Assembly (NCBI GenBank): GCA_029204225.1
Contig: CM055097.1
Coordinates: 7,399,676-7,463,675, forward strand
Source: Diphasiastrum complanatum
Lineage: Eukaryota > Streptophyta > Lycopodiopsida > Lycopodiales > Lycopodiaceae
Direction of reading: 5' to 3'
Length of the DNA: 64,000 nt
This document shows, one piece after another, positions 380 through 57,900 of this stretch. The notes beneath the pieces are model-generated. The model searched no databases. It worked only from the letters and a program-made list of their open reading frames with translations, and was not told the origin of the DNA. Positions within the stretch are counted from its first letter, which is position 1. Each line of letters begins with the position of its first letter. The translations under genes were made by a program, and so were the position numbers.

Positions 380-4120
<3,741 letters not shown>

Positions 4121-5007
4121 ATTTATACGCTGATCACAATTCACTCACTTATCACAACGGAAAGATTAGGTCCGCCCTCTGATCAAAGTCCAAGTATGTA
4201 GGCACATAGCAAACGCAATATGCAAAAAAGAAAGAAAGACGTCCTAAGGAGTCTCTGTGCAGCAGCAAATAGCGACAATGCCCATGATCTGGAAGCGTCC
4301 TATTAACCTGCACGCTGTAACCAGCAGACGTTTTGAAATCCCACAAGAGCCTGCAGACTGCAACAAAAACCAGGTTGAAAAGGATAGAAAGACTGATGTT
4401 CTGCGCAATGCAACGGTGCACAGAAATTAAAGTTTCAGTCCTCGAATAGGTGGCATTTTGATAAAGGCGTTCTTTCCTCTCCGTGAGGTCACGAGTTTGG
4501 CTCCAATAAGCGGACATACAAGAGAAGTAAGAAAGTCACACTTTCAGTGGAAGAATTAAGTTCTCACGAAATTGAGTTGGAAACACAAAAAACACTTCAC
4601 AAGGATCACAAACTCATACCTGTGAAAAGCTCGATATGCTAACAAATGTAAACACAATTCACTTAAAATATGACTCTACTCCTCTACTGCTTTGCAGGAA
4701 GAACAAGAAAAGACTCAACAAACAGGAATAGGCTATTTATATTGGTTGGTTATCAGAGTAAATGGGATCATGCAATGGCGCTTAAAGGCACTCCTCGACT
4801 TAAAGCAGAAGCTCGACTGCAATCAGCAGCACAAACGAGGACACAAAATTACACAGTTAATAAGGCAGAACTGTAAAAGTCTTAAGATAAATACAACAAG
4901 GACAAAGAAAATTTGACTACCTTTAGCAAGAGGCCAAGAAGTACGGGAAGGATCGGATACTCGTACAAAGAACGATTAAGCCGAAAATATCAGAAACAGT
5001 ATATTAT
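4121..5007 (-). other. 5' leader / upstream region of the bZIP gene
   Basis: No protein homology was seen here. It lies directly upstream of the bZIP start and may hold 5' UTR exons and introns. Reading frames on either strand look incidental. Confidence 0.4.
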
Positions 5008-20966: not shown

Positions 20967-20975
20967 CCCCCTCTT
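20967..20975 (-). other. Polypurine tract of the complete copia element
   Basis: The minus strand reads AAGAGGGGG directly before the TG of the 3' LTR. Confidence 0.8.
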
Positions 20976-23900
20976 AATCTGGATCCGTGAATGCTTGATC
21001 TTCAGACTGAGCATTGCACAAAATTTGTTGTGTGCATTAACACTGAGTGCTTTTGTGAAAATGTTTGCAACCATGTCCTACGTTCTGCAGTACGTTAAGC
21101 TTACCTCTCTGTCGAGAACCTTGCCCCTGATGTAGTGATATCTGATCTCAATGTGCTTACTCCTAGAATGAAATCTAGGTTTGGCCGATAAGGCAATAGC
21201 ACTTTGGTTATCACAGAACAAAATTGTGGGGCTGTACTGATACAGACTGATGTCTGACAGCAAATTTCTCAACCAAAATGATTTCTTAATAGATTGAGAA
21301 GCAGCAATGTGTTCTGCTTCAGTAGAAGAAAGTGTGATAGAGGTTTGCTTATGACTGTTCCACGAAATAGGACTGCCGTTGAAGAAGAATGTAAATCCAG
21401 ATGTGGATTTACGATTGTCTGCATCTCCTCCCCAGCTTGCATCAGAATAGCCACTGAGCTGATGAAAATTGTCATTGCTTACATCTCCATAGCAGATGCA
21501 CTGGTCCATCGTAGCTCGAATATATCTCATGACTCGAATAAGAGCCTTCCAATGGGTAATGCTAGGATTAGCCATATATTGGCTGAGTGAGATTACAACA
21601 AAAGAGATAGTTGGTCTTGTACAGACCATTGCGTACATGAGAGATCCAAGTATCGATTGATACGAATATTCTCTCATCTGCTTCTCTTCCTGCTTGGTCT
21701 AGGGACATTGGTTCTTCGACAAATGCAGGCCTGGATCCATTGGTGAGTGAGCTAACTTACAATTCATCAAATTGTATATGTTAAGAACATTGTGAAGATA
21801 CTTTTGTTGAGTGATGTAAATCAGTCGATTTGCTCTATCTCTATGGATTTGAATTCCAAGACAAAAGTGAGCTTCGTCTGGATCAGTCATGTCGAATTCT
21901 GAGAACAGCATCTGTTTTGTATCCTTGACCATTTTGGTATTGTTGCTGAAGAGCAACGTATCATCAACGTACAAGGTGATGATAATGAAGGATTGCTGCA
22001 CTGACCTTGAATAAACGTTGCAATTATCAGTGCTTGGTTTGAATCCTTGTTCAATGAGAAATGTGTTGATCCTCTGAAACCAAGCTATGGCAGACTGTTT
22101 CAAGCCGTACAGTGCTTGTGGAGTTTACAGACATGATTCTTCATGCCTTCCAGAATGTATTCTTCGGGCTGGATCATGTAGATATCTTCTTGTATGACTC
22201 CGTTCAGATAGGCTGTTTGTACATCAAGTTGATGTACTTTGAGGTCGGCAACTGTAGCATAAGACAAGAGCATTCGAATCGACGAATGTTTGATGACTGG
22301 ACTAAAAATCTCACTGTAGTCTACATTCGGGATCTAGGTGAATCCTCGTGCTACTAGTCTAGCCTTCCTTCAATCAATTGCTCCGTTGGCATTATATTTG
22401 ATCTTAAAGATCCATTTGCAATCAATAATATTGCAGCCAAGAGGAGCTTCAACTAATGACCATGTCTGATTCTTGATCAGAGAAGAATACTCTCTGTCCA
22501 TGGCTTCTCTCCAGAGATCAGAGTCTAGTTGGCTGAGTGCCTCTTCGACTGTCGTCGGTTCCTGCATTAAGAGACAGGCAAACTCAGGAGTATACCTTGT
22601 GGGCTGTGTGCGCACTCGGCTTGATCTTTTGGGATGATTCGACTGATGAACCGCTCCTGGGCCTTGTTGCTGGGTAGCAGCAACATCTTCGTCTGATTCG
22701 TTGTCTCGAAGTGGGTCGACAATAGAAATGCCTGAGCCAGAAGATCGGACTGTCGTATCAATGGCAGGAGATGTAGGTTCTTCTTGAGCAATATCCTTGC
22801 CTTTGAGGTCGATGAATTGATCCTCGATAAAGACTGTATCCCGACTATACAAGATTTGCTGGGTATCAGGATCGTGCAGCTTGTAGGTGTTATTAGACGA
22901 AGTATATCCGATCAGGATGGTCTTGAGACCTTGGAGGTCCAATTTCTTCCTTGTGTCTTTTGGGATCTACACGTAGGCAATGCACCCGAACACTCTTAGG
23001 TTCTTCAAAGAAGGCTTAGAGCCTATCCACACCTCGTGGGGTGTCTTGTCTGAGAGGGCCGGCCTTGGTCGAACATCTGTTCTGGAGGTAAGCTGCAGTG
23101 GAGACAGCTTCAGCCCAGAATCTCTTGGGCAACAATGCATGTGATAGCATACACTTAGCATATTCAACCAAAGTACGGTTCTTCCTCTCAGCTAAGCCAT
23201 TAGACTGAGGACTGTAAGGAGTGATGAATTGTTGCTCAATGCCTTGGCTTTGACAGTACTCCTTAAACTCGACAGAGATGTATTCTCCACCGTTGTCTGA
23301 CCTTAGGGCCCTGATCGTCCTTCCAGTATCCTTTTCTACATGCTCCTTGAAGATTCTGAAGTAGTTGAAAGCTTCTGATTTCTTCTTTATGAAATACACC
23401 ATCGTCCTTCTGGAGAATTCGTCAATAAAGGTTATAAAATACTTGGCATCCTTCAGCGAAGGATTTTTCATTGGGCCACAAATATCTGAATGTACAACAT
23501 CTAGCAATCCTCTAGCAATATGCTGATGGCTTGACTTAAATGGTTTCCTAGTCTGTTTACCAACTAGATAGTCTTGACAGACAAGTAACTCGACTTTTTC
23601 GCGAGGATAGTCAAGATTAAGAACAATAGATTGTCTAGACATTCGTTGTATAGCAGCATGATTTAAATGACCAAGTCTATAATGCTAAAGTAAACAGTTA
23701 TTTGTATGAATTGAAGTACTGAGAGCTTGACTAGAGGCAGAAAAGCAATGACTTAATTTATATAAGTATCCATGCCTCTTTTCGAGTGCTAGGATCTTGC
23801 CAGTCCTATCAACTACTTTACACTGATCACATTCAAACTCTACTCTATGTCCTAAATCTGTGATTTTGCTTATAGAGAGCATATTCATAGATATATTTGG

Positions 23901-24200
23901 TACATACAAGACTTTAGAGAGTAGCTTAGATTGATCATTTGCAAAGCTTAATCTTACAGTGCCTTCACCTTTGATAGCTTGTGTGCTATTGTCACCAAGG
24001 TGAACGAACTTCTGGGTACTGTAAGGTGTATAGGACTCGAAACAGCCAATGAGGCTAGTCATGTGCTGAGTGGCTTCAAAATCTAGGAACCAAGAACTGT
24101 CCCCAGATGTTTCTTGATGGTTGGTCATGAAGGCATCATGATCTGCTTCTTGAATAGCCTGTGGAGCTTCTGCAGCTGCATTTGCCACTTGATTCGACTG
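20976..24200 (-). pseudogene. Copia pol: protease, integrase, RT, RNase H (decayed)
   Basis: Protease region: WFLDFEATQHMT at about 24060-24090, where the family active site is DSGA, so both Ser and Gly are changed. Integrase: zinc-finger remnant HYRLGHLN, with one Cys of the later C-x2-C replaced by Tyr, then a core with HSDICGP, RSDNGGEY and [10 protein letters not shown], so the D,D,E residues are present. RT: CKWIFKIKY and the catalytic LYVDDTLLFS near 21975. RNase H: DASWGGDADNRKSTSGF and CDNQSAIAL. Stops near 23685, 22968, 22370, 22337, 21699 and 21078, plus frameshifts near 23075 and 22100, break the frame. It cannot make a polyprotein. Confidence 0.88.
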
Positions 24201-25000
24201 TCCGTTGTTATTGTTCTTTGCTTGAAGTATTTGACAGTCTTGAATTTCGTGGTTGTTTCGTTTGCAGTATCTGCAAAACAGCTTCTTCTTTGTCTGCGAA
24301 TTTGACTGTTCCTTGTGCTGAGCTGGTTTCTGGTCTGCCTTTGATTGCTTTGGGCCTTTCTTCTTCTTCTACTTTGTCGTGCTCTTGTTGGTGTACAAGG
24401 CGTGAGAATCAGCTGAGGAACTCAAGGCTTCATTCCTTCGCGTGTCTTCTTGCAACAACATAGTAATGACTCTTGAAAGAGTCAAATCTGAATGAGTCGT
24501 GATGATTATCACCCAACTATCGTAAGAACTTGGCAAGCTTGTAAGCAGTTGCATCACTGCATCTTGATCGTCTATGACAGATCTGACAGTGGCCATTTGT
24601 CTTAGCAGGTTCTTGAATTGATTAATGTGATTCTGCAGAGAATCACCATTCGTCATCTTGAGGGAGTAGAATTTCTTCCTGAGATGTAGCTTAGAAGCTA
24701 TATCTCGCATTTCGTATAGTGTGCTCAAGATGTCCCAGACTTCTTTTGATGTCTAAGCCTCAGATACATGGCTGATCTGGGTATCCGTGATATTGAGGAT
24801 GATCAACGCTAAAGCCTTTCCATCCTTCAGCTTCCATTTGGCGATTGCCGCGTCGTCCGCTTCGGGTTTCCCTTCTGCACCTATAACAACGTCGAACAAT
24901 TTTTTTGCCATTAGTAAAATTTTCATCTTAAATTTTCACAGATGGTAATTGGCTCATCAAACTTGTCCATGATAGGACTGGCTTTCCCTTGGAAATCCAT
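24201..25000 (-). pseudogene. Copia gag, decayed
   Basis: Starts at ATG 25000 (MDFQGKASP), shifts frame near 24920, then gives KWKLKDGKALALIILNI, a [17 protein letters not shown] block and the nucleocapsid zinc knuckle CRYCKRNNHEIQDC near 24225-24265. A TAG near 24755 replaces an expected Gln. The PBS lies 140 bp upstream. Confidence 0.82.
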
Positions 25001-25137
25001 GTGGAAAAATTAGTCTAAGTGATAGGAGAAACTATCAGTGACTTAAGTATGAAAATTTGATATTTACAGAACAAGAAAACAATTACTCTATCGGCTAGTA
25101 GAGTCTTGTACTGTGGAAGCTTATCAAGCTATGAAAA

Positions 25138-25151
25138 TGGCTCTGATACCA
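25138..25151 (-). other. Primer binding site (initiator Met tRNA type)
   Basis: The minus strand reads TGGTATCAGAGCCA immediately after the LTR end AACA. Confidence 0.93.
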
Positions 25152-51955: not shown

Positions 51956-54900
51956 TCTATTAATGTCTTCTCCATGCCAAAAGGCATATAAGACGAAATA
52001 TATATATCAAGTGTGCGGTAACCATAAGAGCATATAAAACAACTCCAAAATAATAATGAAGGAAAAATACATGTGCATCTACCTATAATCTAACTGCAAC
52101 TAGCTAAAATGACTACAATACTAGTATATTTGGCTTCAATATGATGATATGAGTGATGTCATCATCTCCCACTGCTACTGAAGAAGGATGTAATGGGGGC
52201 AACTGCTGGGTGTATGTCCAACTTGCGATGTTGATGTTGTCGAGGAGATCATCGACGAAAAATGTGAGTTCTCATGGCAGCAGGAAACTGAGTGATGCAC
52301 CATCTCTGGCATCTATGTTGAGTGTCATCCTCGACATTATCATGTCTCTAGGTCAATCTGTGGTTTTCTACGAGAGAAGAAGGATGTAATTTGGAGTTGT
52401 GTGTCAAAGTGACTCGGCTGAACCTGGCTGGCAGAGATCATGTCATAGTAGAAACATCTCTCATAGCATGAGTGCAACACACCGAGGATCCTCGTAGGCT
52501 ATTATGGACCGTAAATGTAATCATGCTTTCAAATTGGCACTGTATAATGTACTCACATTTTGTTGAGCATCGATTCACATTTTTGTAACAGGCTTTTAAG
52601 ACAAGTGCATGTGCTTCATTATTGTTGTCAACGGTCATTTTGTTGTCGTTCAATATGGTTCCATATGATTTCATTTCATACAATACATAAATAGAGATGT
52701 TCAATTGAGAATAGCTTAAAGGCTCCAAACTGGACCGCACCATTCTTGGAACTCCTGGCAGGTTGGATAAGTAAAGCGCTCTTGAAAAAACCTTTAATAT
52801 GATAGTCGTATCGAAAAAAAATTGAAATTTGGGAAACTCTAATGGGAATTCCTGAATCGCGATCCCAATCATGATGTGACAAGTGTTGAGAGAAATACCT
52901 TTGATTGATCTTAAACTAGTTGCAAATATTTAATATAATTTCATGTAACTACATCTTCAAAAGCTTATGAACATGAACAATCAATAAAAATTGTTTGCAT
53001 GATGGATTGTTGATGAAGAGGCAATATAACATGTAGATTAGATACTCCATTTTATCATTCACAACACTAATTATGCTAGTGTGGATGATGGAAATGTTTG
53101 TGGCCCATAGCGCCACAATAGTCACAAAGATTGACAACATTTTGTTGCTACTGAATCCACATTTGTTGTTGAAGGTGGATATATGCATACTACATGGTTG
53201 CAAAGCTCTATGTAGTGAGCTCACATTAAGTGCTAACTAGAAACTATCATAGATCTTCAGAAAGTTGCACATTGAAGCCCTTGATCCGAGGAGGAACCAA
53301 AAAATTGAAACCCATGTGAGTGTGTTTTGAACTTTAACATGGTATGACAATGATTCATGAAAATGAAATACATGGGAGAGCCCAAGAACCATCGATGAGT
53401 AATAACACCAAATTCTTTAAAAAGGCAAGAATGAATTACCTTACGTCGTGAGAACTGACGCAATTGATACTGCAATTGGAGCAGTTTTATTACAAAATGA
53501 TCGGCCACTAGCGTTTGAGAGCAAAAATTTCACTAGCCCTTAGTTGCATTATACTACGCACGAAAAGGAATTATTTGCAATTATCCATGCACTTAAGACC
53601 TGGAGACACTACTTGTATGGTAGTAACTTTATAGTGTATTGTATACGGATCACCAGCCTCTTAAGTACTTTTGCAATCAGCATGATCTTCGGGGTAGGAA
53701 AGTCCGATGGGACCGAATTGATGCAAGAATTCAATCATGAAATCCGTAATATGAGAGGCAGCTCGAATCAAGTTGCGGATGGTCTTAGTCGGATTGGTAA
53801 ACTAAACAAATTGTCTTTCACCCAGATTTGTACGGATCATCAATAGCAAGATGAAAGTTTTGGTGTTTCATTGCCTTTCTCTCTCACTCTACTCTTGCTT
53901 CCTAATCCTTGGCTTGGGGGTGAAGTTGTTGGAGATTGATTGGTTGCTTCTACTTGGTTGGGTGGTTTTGCTCCACAGTGTGTTCTCTTGTGTTTGGACT
54001 TCTAAGTAGGATCTTGAGGAGCTTTCCCTTACATCTAGCAGGTGCATATGTTGTGAGAGCTCGGGGGCCTTTTCGAGGTCGAAGTGCCACAGAGAGAGGT
54101 GGTAGAGAATTCTTTACCAAATCATGGCAGCAATCACACGAGCGACCATCGCTATTAGGCCAAGACCCCCTCTTGGAGGGATATGATTCAGGCTGTTTCT
54201 TGTATTGCTGCGACTAGCAAGCGCCTACTACAGAGATGCTCATGACCAAGCACTTGACCTCAAAAATGGAGAGCGTCCAGAGAGAGCTGCAGCTCATTCA
54301 AGATTCATGGGCTAGGTATGGATGCAGCATTTTCCAGATGGATGCAGTGATATCAAGACGTGCCACCTCATCAATATGTTGGTGTCTTCCTGCAAAGGCA
54401 CCATATTTCTGAGGTCCATCGATACTTCTACGCCAGGCACTACTATGACAGGCGAGTATATTTTTGATGAAATCAAGGCGGCCATTGAGGAAGTGGGGCC
54501 AGAAAAAGTTGTGCAGGTAAACATTTAAAGTTCAAACTAATGTTTTCAACTTTACATTTGGTTCAAGTTTGAAGTTTGAGCTTTGAAGTTTTAATTGAAT
54601 GTTTTGCACCTTGAACTATGAAGGTGATCACAGATAATGCCACCAACTATGTTTCTATGGGGTGCATGGTGGAGGAACATTATCCACACATTTTCTGGAC
54701 CTTGTGTGCAACTCATTGTTTAGACCTCTTGACTGAGGACATTGCAAAATTGCCATGGGTTAAGAAGATAGTGGACATCACTCGATTCTTGGTGAGGTTT
54801 TGTTAGAAAGTGTCAAGGCTATAGCCCTTGCACAACACTCTAGGAACACAAATGGACGGGTAGCTCAGTGGTAGAGCACTCCACCATAATGGGGGAGGTC

Positions 54901-57900
54901 CTAGGTTCAATCCCTAGCCCGACCACACACACCAAGTGTAAAAACTTTTCACATGGTACCAGAGCCATGGTTGAAAGTGTCGTCTAGGCGGGCTATGCCT
55001 TGAGGGGGAGTGTTAGAAAGTGTCAAGGCTATAGCCCTTGCACAACACTCTAGGAACACAAATGGACGGGTAGCTCAATGGTGGAGCACCCCACCGGAAT
55101 GGGGGAGGTCCTAGGTTCAATCCCTAGCCCGACCACACACACCAAGTGTAAAAACTTTGTAATGATGCTATCGTTAAGAGAAACGAGACCTTCTTTCGAT
55201 GAGCTAAATGCCATCTTACTACAGGAAGAAATGAGATGACAAAATATTGTCAACATGGACGATTTCAAGGAACGGGCAAATCTGGCAAAGAAGCAAGAGC
55301 AAAGTTCCAAGAAGGGTGGCAAAGGGAAGAAGAAGAAGAAGCAGCAAGATATGGAGGAGAATCAATAAAATCGATCAGAAGATGGAAAGAAAGTGGTTCA
55401 AAAGGAAACTGCTTTATTTGCAAAAAATCAGGACATTATGCAAAGGAGTGCTGGCACAACAAGTTCAAGAAAAAGCCAGATGGAAATTTTGCTGAAGAAG
55501 AAGAAACTTCAAATGCAAAATTGAGTGCTTTGGATCTTCAAGACTATGAGTTGTTTTCGGCATCAACACCTTCTGGTAGTGCCTTCTCGAAGGACAAAGA
55601 CTATTGGTTTATTGATTCAGGAGCTTCTAAGCACATGACACCTAGGCGAGACTGGCTATTTAATTAGATGATGGGTCAAATGTGAAGTTGGGAGACAACT
55701 ACACATATGATATAAAAGGAGTTGGAAAAATACAAGTTCAACTACCTTCAGGGAAGATTGGAAACATAAAAATTGTGCTTTATGTACCAGGAAAATGTTA
55801 GAAATCCATAAATCATAATATGGATGGACAGACTAGGATTCGAACCCAGGACCTCCCTCATACCGGATGGGATGCTCTACCACTGAGCTATCCGCCCTGT
55901 TTGATAGTTCTCTCTAGAGTGTGGATTGATATTCCAACACCCCCCCTCAAGCCACACTTGGTTGGGGTCCTGCTGTCACCTGCCCCACAACTTGGGCCAC
56001 CTAACCATGGCTTTGACACCATGAACTGTTAGGTCTAACTTGGCTCTGATACCATGTTAGAAATCCATAAATCACTGAGTTATCCGCCCTGTTTGATAGT
56101 TCTCTCAAAGTTCAAGCTCAGGTGGTGAATCATCATGCAAGTGTCGCGGATATTGGATCATTGAGTAAGTTATGGCACGAGAGGTTTGGACATCTAAATT
56201 ACAAAAGTTTAAAAGTCTTGAGAAAATTTAACATGGTTACAGGTTTACCTCAAGTCGTTTTTTATCACAAGGTTTGTGAAGGCTGTGTCTTAGGCAAGCA
56301 TCATATGAAGAAATTTTTGCCTAGTACATTCAAGGCGAAAAATGTGGATGATTTTTCTAGGAACACATGGATTTATCTTCATTGGCAGCTCAGTTTGGAT
56401 AGGATATTCAACAAATGGATGTAAAGAGTGCATTCCTGAATGGATTTCTAGAGGAAGAAGTCTACATGGAGCAGCCAGAGGGATACATAGTAGTAGGACA
56501 TGAAGACAAGGTTTGCAGGTTGGACAAAGCACTATATGGACTTAAGCAGGCACCCAGGGCGTGGTACACGAGGATTGACACATACTTTGAGGAGCTTGGC
56601 TTTCAGAGAAGTAGTTCGGAGCATACACTTTATGTTTTGATCAGGGATAATCATATTGTAATTGTAGTCATGTATGTGGATGATCTTGTTATTACAGGGT
56701 CAGATCATAGTATGATTCAGGGAATCAAGAAATATCTCTCATCAAAGTTTGACATGAAAGATCTTGGTTCACAACAATTTTTCTTGGGATTGAGGTATGG
56801 AGAGTAGCACAGGGGCTGTTTATTTCTCAATCTAAGTATGCTCATGAACTTCTTGAAAAGTTCAATATGTTAGAGTGCAAGCCTATTTCTACACCATATG
56901 ATAGTGGATGTAAGCTTACTAAAGCTGAGGAAGATCAGGATGTAGATGAGACATCATATAGAAAGCTTGTTGGAAGCTTAATCTATCTAACTACTACAAG
57001 ACCAGATATTGCTTATGCTATGAGTATGGTTAGTCAGTTTATGGCTAAGCCTAAGCAAATTCATTGGAAAGCTGCTAAGCGGATACTCAGATATATCTAA
57101 GGCACTTTGAGATTTGGTATTCTCTATGGTAGACAGGATGATTTGAAGTTACAGGGATATGTGGATGTTGATTGGGCTGGAGATGTGGAAGACTGAAGAT
57201 CTACTACAGGTTATGTTTTTAGTCGTGGTTCTGGTGCTATCTCTTGGAGTTCAAAAAAGCAGCACACTATTGCTTTATCATCTACAGAGGCAGAACATCG
57301 AGCTACGAGTGCAACATGTGAAGCAATATGGTTACGAAGGATTCTACATGATCTACATATGGTACAAGATTCACCTACGGTACTTCAATGCGACAATTAG
57401 AGTTGTATTAAATTAGCGAAAAATCCAGTTTTTCACAGGAGGACAAAGCACATTGAAGTACATCCACTCTTCATCAAAGAAAAAATTCAAAGTGATGAAG
57501 TGGAGCTTATCTATTGCCCTACGAAAGAACAAGTTGCAAATATCTTTACCAAAGGACTTGGCAAAGAAAAATTTCAGAAGTTTAGAGAACTTCTAGGAGT
57601 AACAGATAACAAGGTAAACATAAAGGGGGAGTGTTAGGAATTAATGTTTATTTGATACCCCTTAATGATAGTTTGGTCATGCCTGCATGCTATTATAGGG
57701 GCCATCTATTTATAGTAAAATCGTTTTTTATTGCTTATGCATGTAGGTGGGTGCACTAATTATAGATTAAGATCTATTTAGTACTTAGAAGTTCAATTCT
57801 GGTCTTTATCAAATATAGGTAGTATTATTAGCAATTAGCTTTTGCTATTTTGCTATTTGCTTTAGGCGTGATCAATGCATTATGCAACTATGTTTTTGAC

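Follow-up and report, generated by a model that had tools for sequence, protein, structure and literature searches.

Two families of Helenus-like miniature LTR retrotransposons with a tRNA-like cassette in their LTRs in the clubmoss Diphasiastrum complanatum

Two miniature long terminal repeat (LTR) retrotransposons lie in a 64-kb stretch of the Diphasiastrum complanatum genome (the window, to which all positions below refer unless a chromosome is named), and three of their four LTRs contain a tRNA-like cassette of 72 to 73 nt. They are referred to here as terminal-repeat retrotransposons in miniature (TRIMs), TRIM A (54801-55158) being on the plus strand and TRIM B (55796-56106) on the minus strand. 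We consider it highly probable that they represent two families of non-autonomous TRIMs of the Helenus kind, which would propagate by the RNA polymerase III (Pol III) cycle proposed below. The host is borne out by an open reading frame elsewhere in the window (3062-4144), whose product, a bZIP-family relative, shares 95% identity with O6H91_06G016400 of D. complanatum across 89% of its length.

The 5' LTR of TRIM A (54801-54953) is 153 nt long, begins with TG, and ends with CA. It contains a cassette at 54854-54925, with the A box at 54861-54871 and the B box at 54904-54914, and close to its end TTTT (54946-54949), a possible Pol III terminator. The primer-binding site (PBS) TGGTACCAGAGCC follows at 54954-54966 and is, we assume, of the initiator-Met type; TGGTATCAGAGCC constitutes the PBS in 8 of the 10 internal parts inspected. 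Downstream of the polypurine tract (55002-55010), the 3' LTR (55011-55158) is 97% identical to 54801-54948 and contains a second cassette (55064-55135); its final bases are absent, so that it stops approximately 5 nt short. In TRIM B, the 3' LTR (55796-55939) is 144 nt long, which is the family length, and contains a cassette at 55825-55897; it adjoins the polypurine tract TTGAGGGGGGG (55940-55950), while the PBS TGGTATCAGAGCCA (56041-56054) adjoins a 5' LTR remnant (56055-56106), from which the start of the unique 3' (U3) region and most of the cassette are deleted. LTR ends, a TGGTAYCAGAGCC PBS, and a purine tract are recognizable in both elements, which also have the motifs CACTCTAG and AGCCATGGTT in common. 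A preliminary description of the locus, made from the sequence alone, had listed recognizable LTR ends, exact A and B boxes, a PBS, a purine tract, and shared motifs; all of these are present, the qualification being that the 3' LTR of TRIM A and the 5' LTR of TRIM B are incomplete. Neither of the two window copies is flanked by an exact target-site duplication.

The three cassettes score 51.9 and 53.0 bits (5' and 3' LTR of TRIM A) and 49.8 bits (TRIM B) with the Rfam tRNA family RF00005, for which the cut-off is 29 bits. ARAGORN agrees, predicting three tRNA-like genes at these positions and no others in the 64 kb, and the positions given in the preliminary description are thereby confirmed. 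The A box TAGCTCARTGG and the B box GGTTCRANYCC are exact in the window cassettes, and the minimum-energy shape of all three is a cloverleaf. Folding energy alone was rejected as evidence because it is uninformative, being no better than that of shuffled sequences (z = −1.2, −0.1, and −0.6). Covariation in eight closely related cassettes gave a mixed picture that carries little weight: one pair has changed on both sides, which 396 of 500 shuffles also attain, while for the percentage paired and for the covariation score the observed value is attained by 12 of 500 shuffles each. No match to 5S rRNA was found in 54301-56700 at E values up to 1.

Both elements are repeated across the genome. Counting places that match the 26-nt start of U3 with up to three mismatches, we found 331 + 358 = 689 for A and 918 + 922 = 1840 for B, and the reversed sequences used as controls gave none in either case. 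For the cassette core, TAGCTCAGTGGTAGAGCA-N12-24-GAGGTC, the genome has exact matches at 626 + 654 = 1280 places (control, 0). Genome searches with the elements yielded 1089 first-look candidates for A and 1224 for B, of which 40 each were scored. Two-LTR copies of A are mostly 378 nt (153 + 72 + 153) and those of B 404 nt (144 + 116 + 144). The non-redundant best-match copies number 17 for A and 23 for B; of these, 9 A and 16 B copies lie between exact 5-bp duplications of the target site, and 15 A and 22 B copies have TG..CA ends. To obtain these sets, 11 of 28 A loci were dropped (eight with duplicate flanks and three lacking a two-LTR span in range), as were 7 of 30 B loci (two and five, respectively), while units of tandem arrays were retained and scored as lacking a duplication. 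The LTRs of best-match copies have diverged little, the median identity being 0.967 for A (0.908-0.993) and 0.979 for B (0.958-1.0), and some copies have identical LTRs; these values lean high because the selection favored the copies closest to the window sequence.

Among the copies inspected, those longer than the usual size are tandem arrays, in which LTRs and internal parts alternate. Such arrays were observed for both families (L028/L029 at C11:41183139-41184314, L077 on C6, and L082 on C18), and the one on C11 consists of five LTRs and four internal parts, its outer flanks keeping one 5-bp duplication. Separately, six A-type LTRs (L060-L062 and L065-L067) at C1:94.6-97.1 Mb, near one end of C1, are followed by the same sequence, ATTCTGCTAACTGA, suggesting segmental duplication or satellite-like spread of a single LTR.

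How the cassette came to lie in these LTRs can be judged from the copies. That a tRNA gene or a short interspersed element (SINE) was recently inserted into these two LTRs, or that the match is due to chance, is hardly credible. We found nothing in support of either possibility, and both the genomic copies and the RF00005 scores speak against them. Among the first 30 listed of the 689 A places, found by U3 alone and all on C1, 29 have a whole or partial cassette after U3, starting at LTR position 54 in 27 cases and at positions 29 and 43 in one case each; in the thirtieth (L050), U3 is followed by foreign sequence. For B, 21 U3 places in 20 regions, mostly picked because they were absent from the listed exact core matches, gave a whole or partial cassette in 18, the other three entering foreign sequence directly. 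An LTR joining U3 to the unique 5' (U5) region without a cassette was sought and was not present among these 30 A and 21 B places. Conversely, in 40 regions taken from the listed core matches and holding 46 cassettes outside the window, U3 of the A or B type lies beside 44 cassettes, and none of the 46 is a free tRNA gene or SINE; of the other two, one (L123) has a B U5 and a partial U3 and one (L115) is rearranged. The claim of the preliminary description that the cassette is an old part of the LTR is thus upheld. A different possibility is that the tRNA-like sequences of A and B were acquired separately, for instance through SINE insertion, and that the two have no common tRNA-LTR ancestor. 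The U5 regions are unlike and the U3 regions only weakly alike between A and B, as this explanation would have it, and Kojima makes the case that Helenus arose more than once (PMC10886601). We nevertheless regard independent capture as quite unlikely, since 60 of 73 columns are identical between aligned representative cassettes of A and B, compared with 41 to 53 letters between cassette and 26 distinct host tRNAs, and since A and B have U3 and internal motifs in common. Measured against shuffles, the likeness between A and B has a z score of 14.6 in the cassette, 6.4 in the internal part with its PBS and purine tract, 3.3 in U3, and 1.8 in U5. The preliminary description also regarded A and B as different subfamilies of a single group, and these data agree with that view.

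The tRNAs used for this comparison, 33 loci plus two tRNA-Cys genes that together amount to 26 distinct sequences, are part of the tRNAs of the genome; the loci came from a genome tRNA search in which 63 of 84948 first-look candidates were scored. A 40-mer of tRNA-Cys gave 0 matches as a genome query, and a looser pattern yielded the two tRNA-Cys(GCA) genes. By score, Cys(GCA) and Thr types are closest to the cassette, with up to 52 to 53 of approximately 73 letters among the 26 sequences. Because Arg, Ile, and Gly types come within one to two letters of these, several tRNA types are candidate parents. On inspection by eye, the anticodon arm of the cassette does not resemble that of any tRNA compared. 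We also noticed three tRNA-Cys(GCA) loci (L089, L090, and L168), each on a different chromosome, whose gene sequences are almost identical although the letters just outside the gene differ; these genes are perhaps of organelle origin.

Signals expected of a tRNA-type promoter recur in the families. We counted them in distinct LTRs of the copies that best match a cassette-bearing query, namely 50 A and 42 B LTRs (one of 43 B LTRs was omitted because its cassette is short). Of the 50 A LTRs, 45 have the A box, 44 the B box, and 39 both; of the 42 B LTRs, the corresponding numbers are 41, 39, and 38. CAA, described as a start motif of plant tRNA genes and present in this position in 36-45% of angiosperm tRNA genes (PMC11700998), is found within 10 nt upstream of the cassette in 37 of 50 A and 40 of 42 B LTRs. 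Among the 50 A LTRs, 43 have TTTT 3' of the cassette, and TTTCT follows the cassette in all 42 B LTRs; a few decayed B copies do carry TTTT after the cassette. The absence of TTTT in B was considered as evidence for Pol III and rejected, because 78% of shuffles of the element examined (L030) also lack it.

Judging from these sequence features, A and B are likely transcribed by Pol III from the LTR cassette, and we propose the following cycle. TFIIIC would recognize both boxes of the 5' LTR cassette, and Pol III would initiate at the CAA just upstream and transcribe across the short internal part and on into the 3' LTR. Family A transcripts could terminate at the TTTT approximately 20 nt past the cassette of the 3' LTR, giving a repeat (R) region of approximately 100 nt. 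An autonomous element, most likely a Copia, would then reverse-transcribe this RNA in trans, presumably from initiator-Met tRNA annealed to the PBS; the purine tract would prime the second strand, and integration would produce the 5-bp target duplication.

Several observations weigh against this cycle. TTTT is present in both A LTRs, so that Pol III might already terminate in the 5' LTR, yielding nothing but a short transcript; much A transcription may give such short tRNA-like RNA. In family B, TTTT follows the cassette in none of the 42 best-match LTRs; B therefore has no canonical Pol III stop and, if transcribed by Pol III, must end its RNA in some other way. None of the 13 differences between the A and B cassettes falls on the 13 fixed box letters, but this is weak (P = 0.06), and its weight is lowered further because box letters are conserved in tRNAs anyway; likewise, the box counts in best-match LTRs are biased by the cassette-bearing query. 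The likeness of A and B to the Copia elements of the window, which were the ones compared, is limited to the PBS and end signals. Finally, of the places selected by U3, only 5 of 30 for A and 5 of 21 for B, the latter having been chosen mostly as hard cases, retain both boxes, so that most sampled copies could not now be transcribed via the cassette; among the 46 cassettes selected by their core, the B box is intact in 26. This decay does not alter our confidence in the Pol III cycle, because old copies of any TRIM family are expected to decay. The missing B terminator would also be in line with another reading, namely that A and B are TRIMs of the Helenus kind transcribed by Pol II from U3, with the tRNA-like part being kept for structure, packaging, or protection, or carried as a passenger. 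CTATAG approximately 30 nt upstream of the A cassette could be taken in the same sense, although a TATA-like site would suit either polymerase. Transcription by Pol II is an explanation to be reckoned with, but we think it improbable: U3 would have to provide the promoter in only 42 to 53 nt, the likeness between A and B is far greater in the cassette than in U5 or U3, and CAA adjoins the cassette in both families.

TRIM A has a DUF659 fragment, which we take to be hAT-like, on its left and a Copia gag-like region, recognized by eye, on its right (54301-55160). Lying at this junction without a duplication and with a short 3' LTR, it looks as if recombination or a later rearrangement had joined the two sides. 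TRIM B is contained in a broken Copia element (55203-57637), between a Pol_BBD-like part and gag_pre-integrs, with RVT_2 further on; the Pol_BBD match is weak (26.4 bits, just under the cut-off of 27). The Copia elements of the window have the initiator-Met-type PBS in common with A and B, and one also has TGTTGG...AACA ends. That element (20975-25151, minus strand), with LTR ends of the TGTTGG...AACA type and the PBS TGGTATCAGAGCCA, has the same end signals as TRIM B and is a possible helper type.

Altogether, A and B are a new and abundant lycophyte (clubmoss) example of the known Helenus kind, and they extend TRIMs with tRNA-derived LTRs in plants from one spikemoss to clubmosses and to a high copy number. 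A more far-reaching reading, which we put forward tentatively and think rather unlikely to hold in full, is that Helenus-type elements are old in lycophytes, predating the split between Selaginella and clubmosses, that they have given rise to thousands of LTRs in Diphasiastrum, and that they use two modes of ending a Pol III transcript, A ending at the LTR TTTT and B, without TTTT, perhaps relying on Pol III run-on or on Pol II-type 3' ends. Because the copy number is high and some copies have identical LTRs, the main idea about these elements, a retrotransposition template made by Pol III, becomes testable in a plant, and the difference in terminators between B and A makes Pol III termination testable as well. 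Moreover, LTRs can inflate tRNA predictions in the D. complanatum genome: the scores of the three window cassettes exceed the Rfam tRNA cut-off, and of the 63 places that the genome tRNA search listed, 2 (L124 and L125) are cassettes.

Among known systems, tRNA-derived SINEs have a tRNA-like head in which the A and B boxes act as a Pol III promoter; they are devoid of LTRs, and their head and tail are mobilized through target-primed reverse transcription. A and B differ from them in having two LTRs, a PBS, a polypurine tract, and 5-bp duplications. Cassandra is a TRIM with a promoter inside its LTR that derives from a Pol III gene, that for 5S rRNA (PMC7215508, PMC10853983). The preliminary description had seen in A and B a tRNA counterpart of Cassandra, and the copies across the genome support this comparison. 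A and B resemble Cassandra in the Pol III-type promoter in the LTR, the PBS TGGTATCAGAGC, and the tandem arrays (PMC7215508, PMC10853983), and differ from it in that the promoter is tRNA-like rather than of the 5S type. Transcription of Cassandra is said to begin and terminate within the 5S portions of its two LTRs (PMC10886601), and its arrays are presumably read through (PMC7215508).

The implied novelty of such elements does not stand, since the kind was published in 2024. Kojima describes Helenus as TRIMs with tRNA-derived LTRs in fungi and animals, the sole plant named there being Selaginella moellendorffii (PMC10886601). Among titles and abstract openings in the open-access literature, we recognized no second paper on this class and found no title on such elements in D. 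complanatum; a report by Gao in 2016 describes TRIMs in Selaginella, and its main text contains no word beginning with "tRNA" (PMC4717578). As in Kojima's description of Helenus, A (378 nt) and B (404 nt) have two LTRs, are shorter than 1000 bp, and have no coding capacity; they carry a tRNA-derived sequence inside their LTRs, as indicated by the RF00005 scores and by the other copies; their internal parts have a PBS and a polypurine tract at the ends; and their boxes agree with those of Helenus (A box, TRGCY and YGG; B box, GGTTC), although these are often lost in decayed copies (PMC10886601). The 5-bp duplications of the A and B copies are also those of plant and fungal Helenus, tandem arrays are known there from a zebrafish family, and reliance in trans on an autonomous element is considered probable both for Helenus and in our reading of A and B (PMC10886601). 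Pol III transcription was expected by Kojima for Helenus and was untested in that work (PMC10886601). The differences concern the host, which is a member of the Lycopodiales here and Selaginella for plant Helenus; the lengths of LTR and internal part, which are 153 and 72 nt in A and 144 and 116 nt in B compared with 120 and 85 in Helenus-1_SMo, itself flanked by 5-bp duplications, as judged from the published description of that family; and the PBS, which in A and B looks to be of the initiator-Met 3'-end type, whereas most fungal Helenus families use the anticodon loop (PMC10886601).

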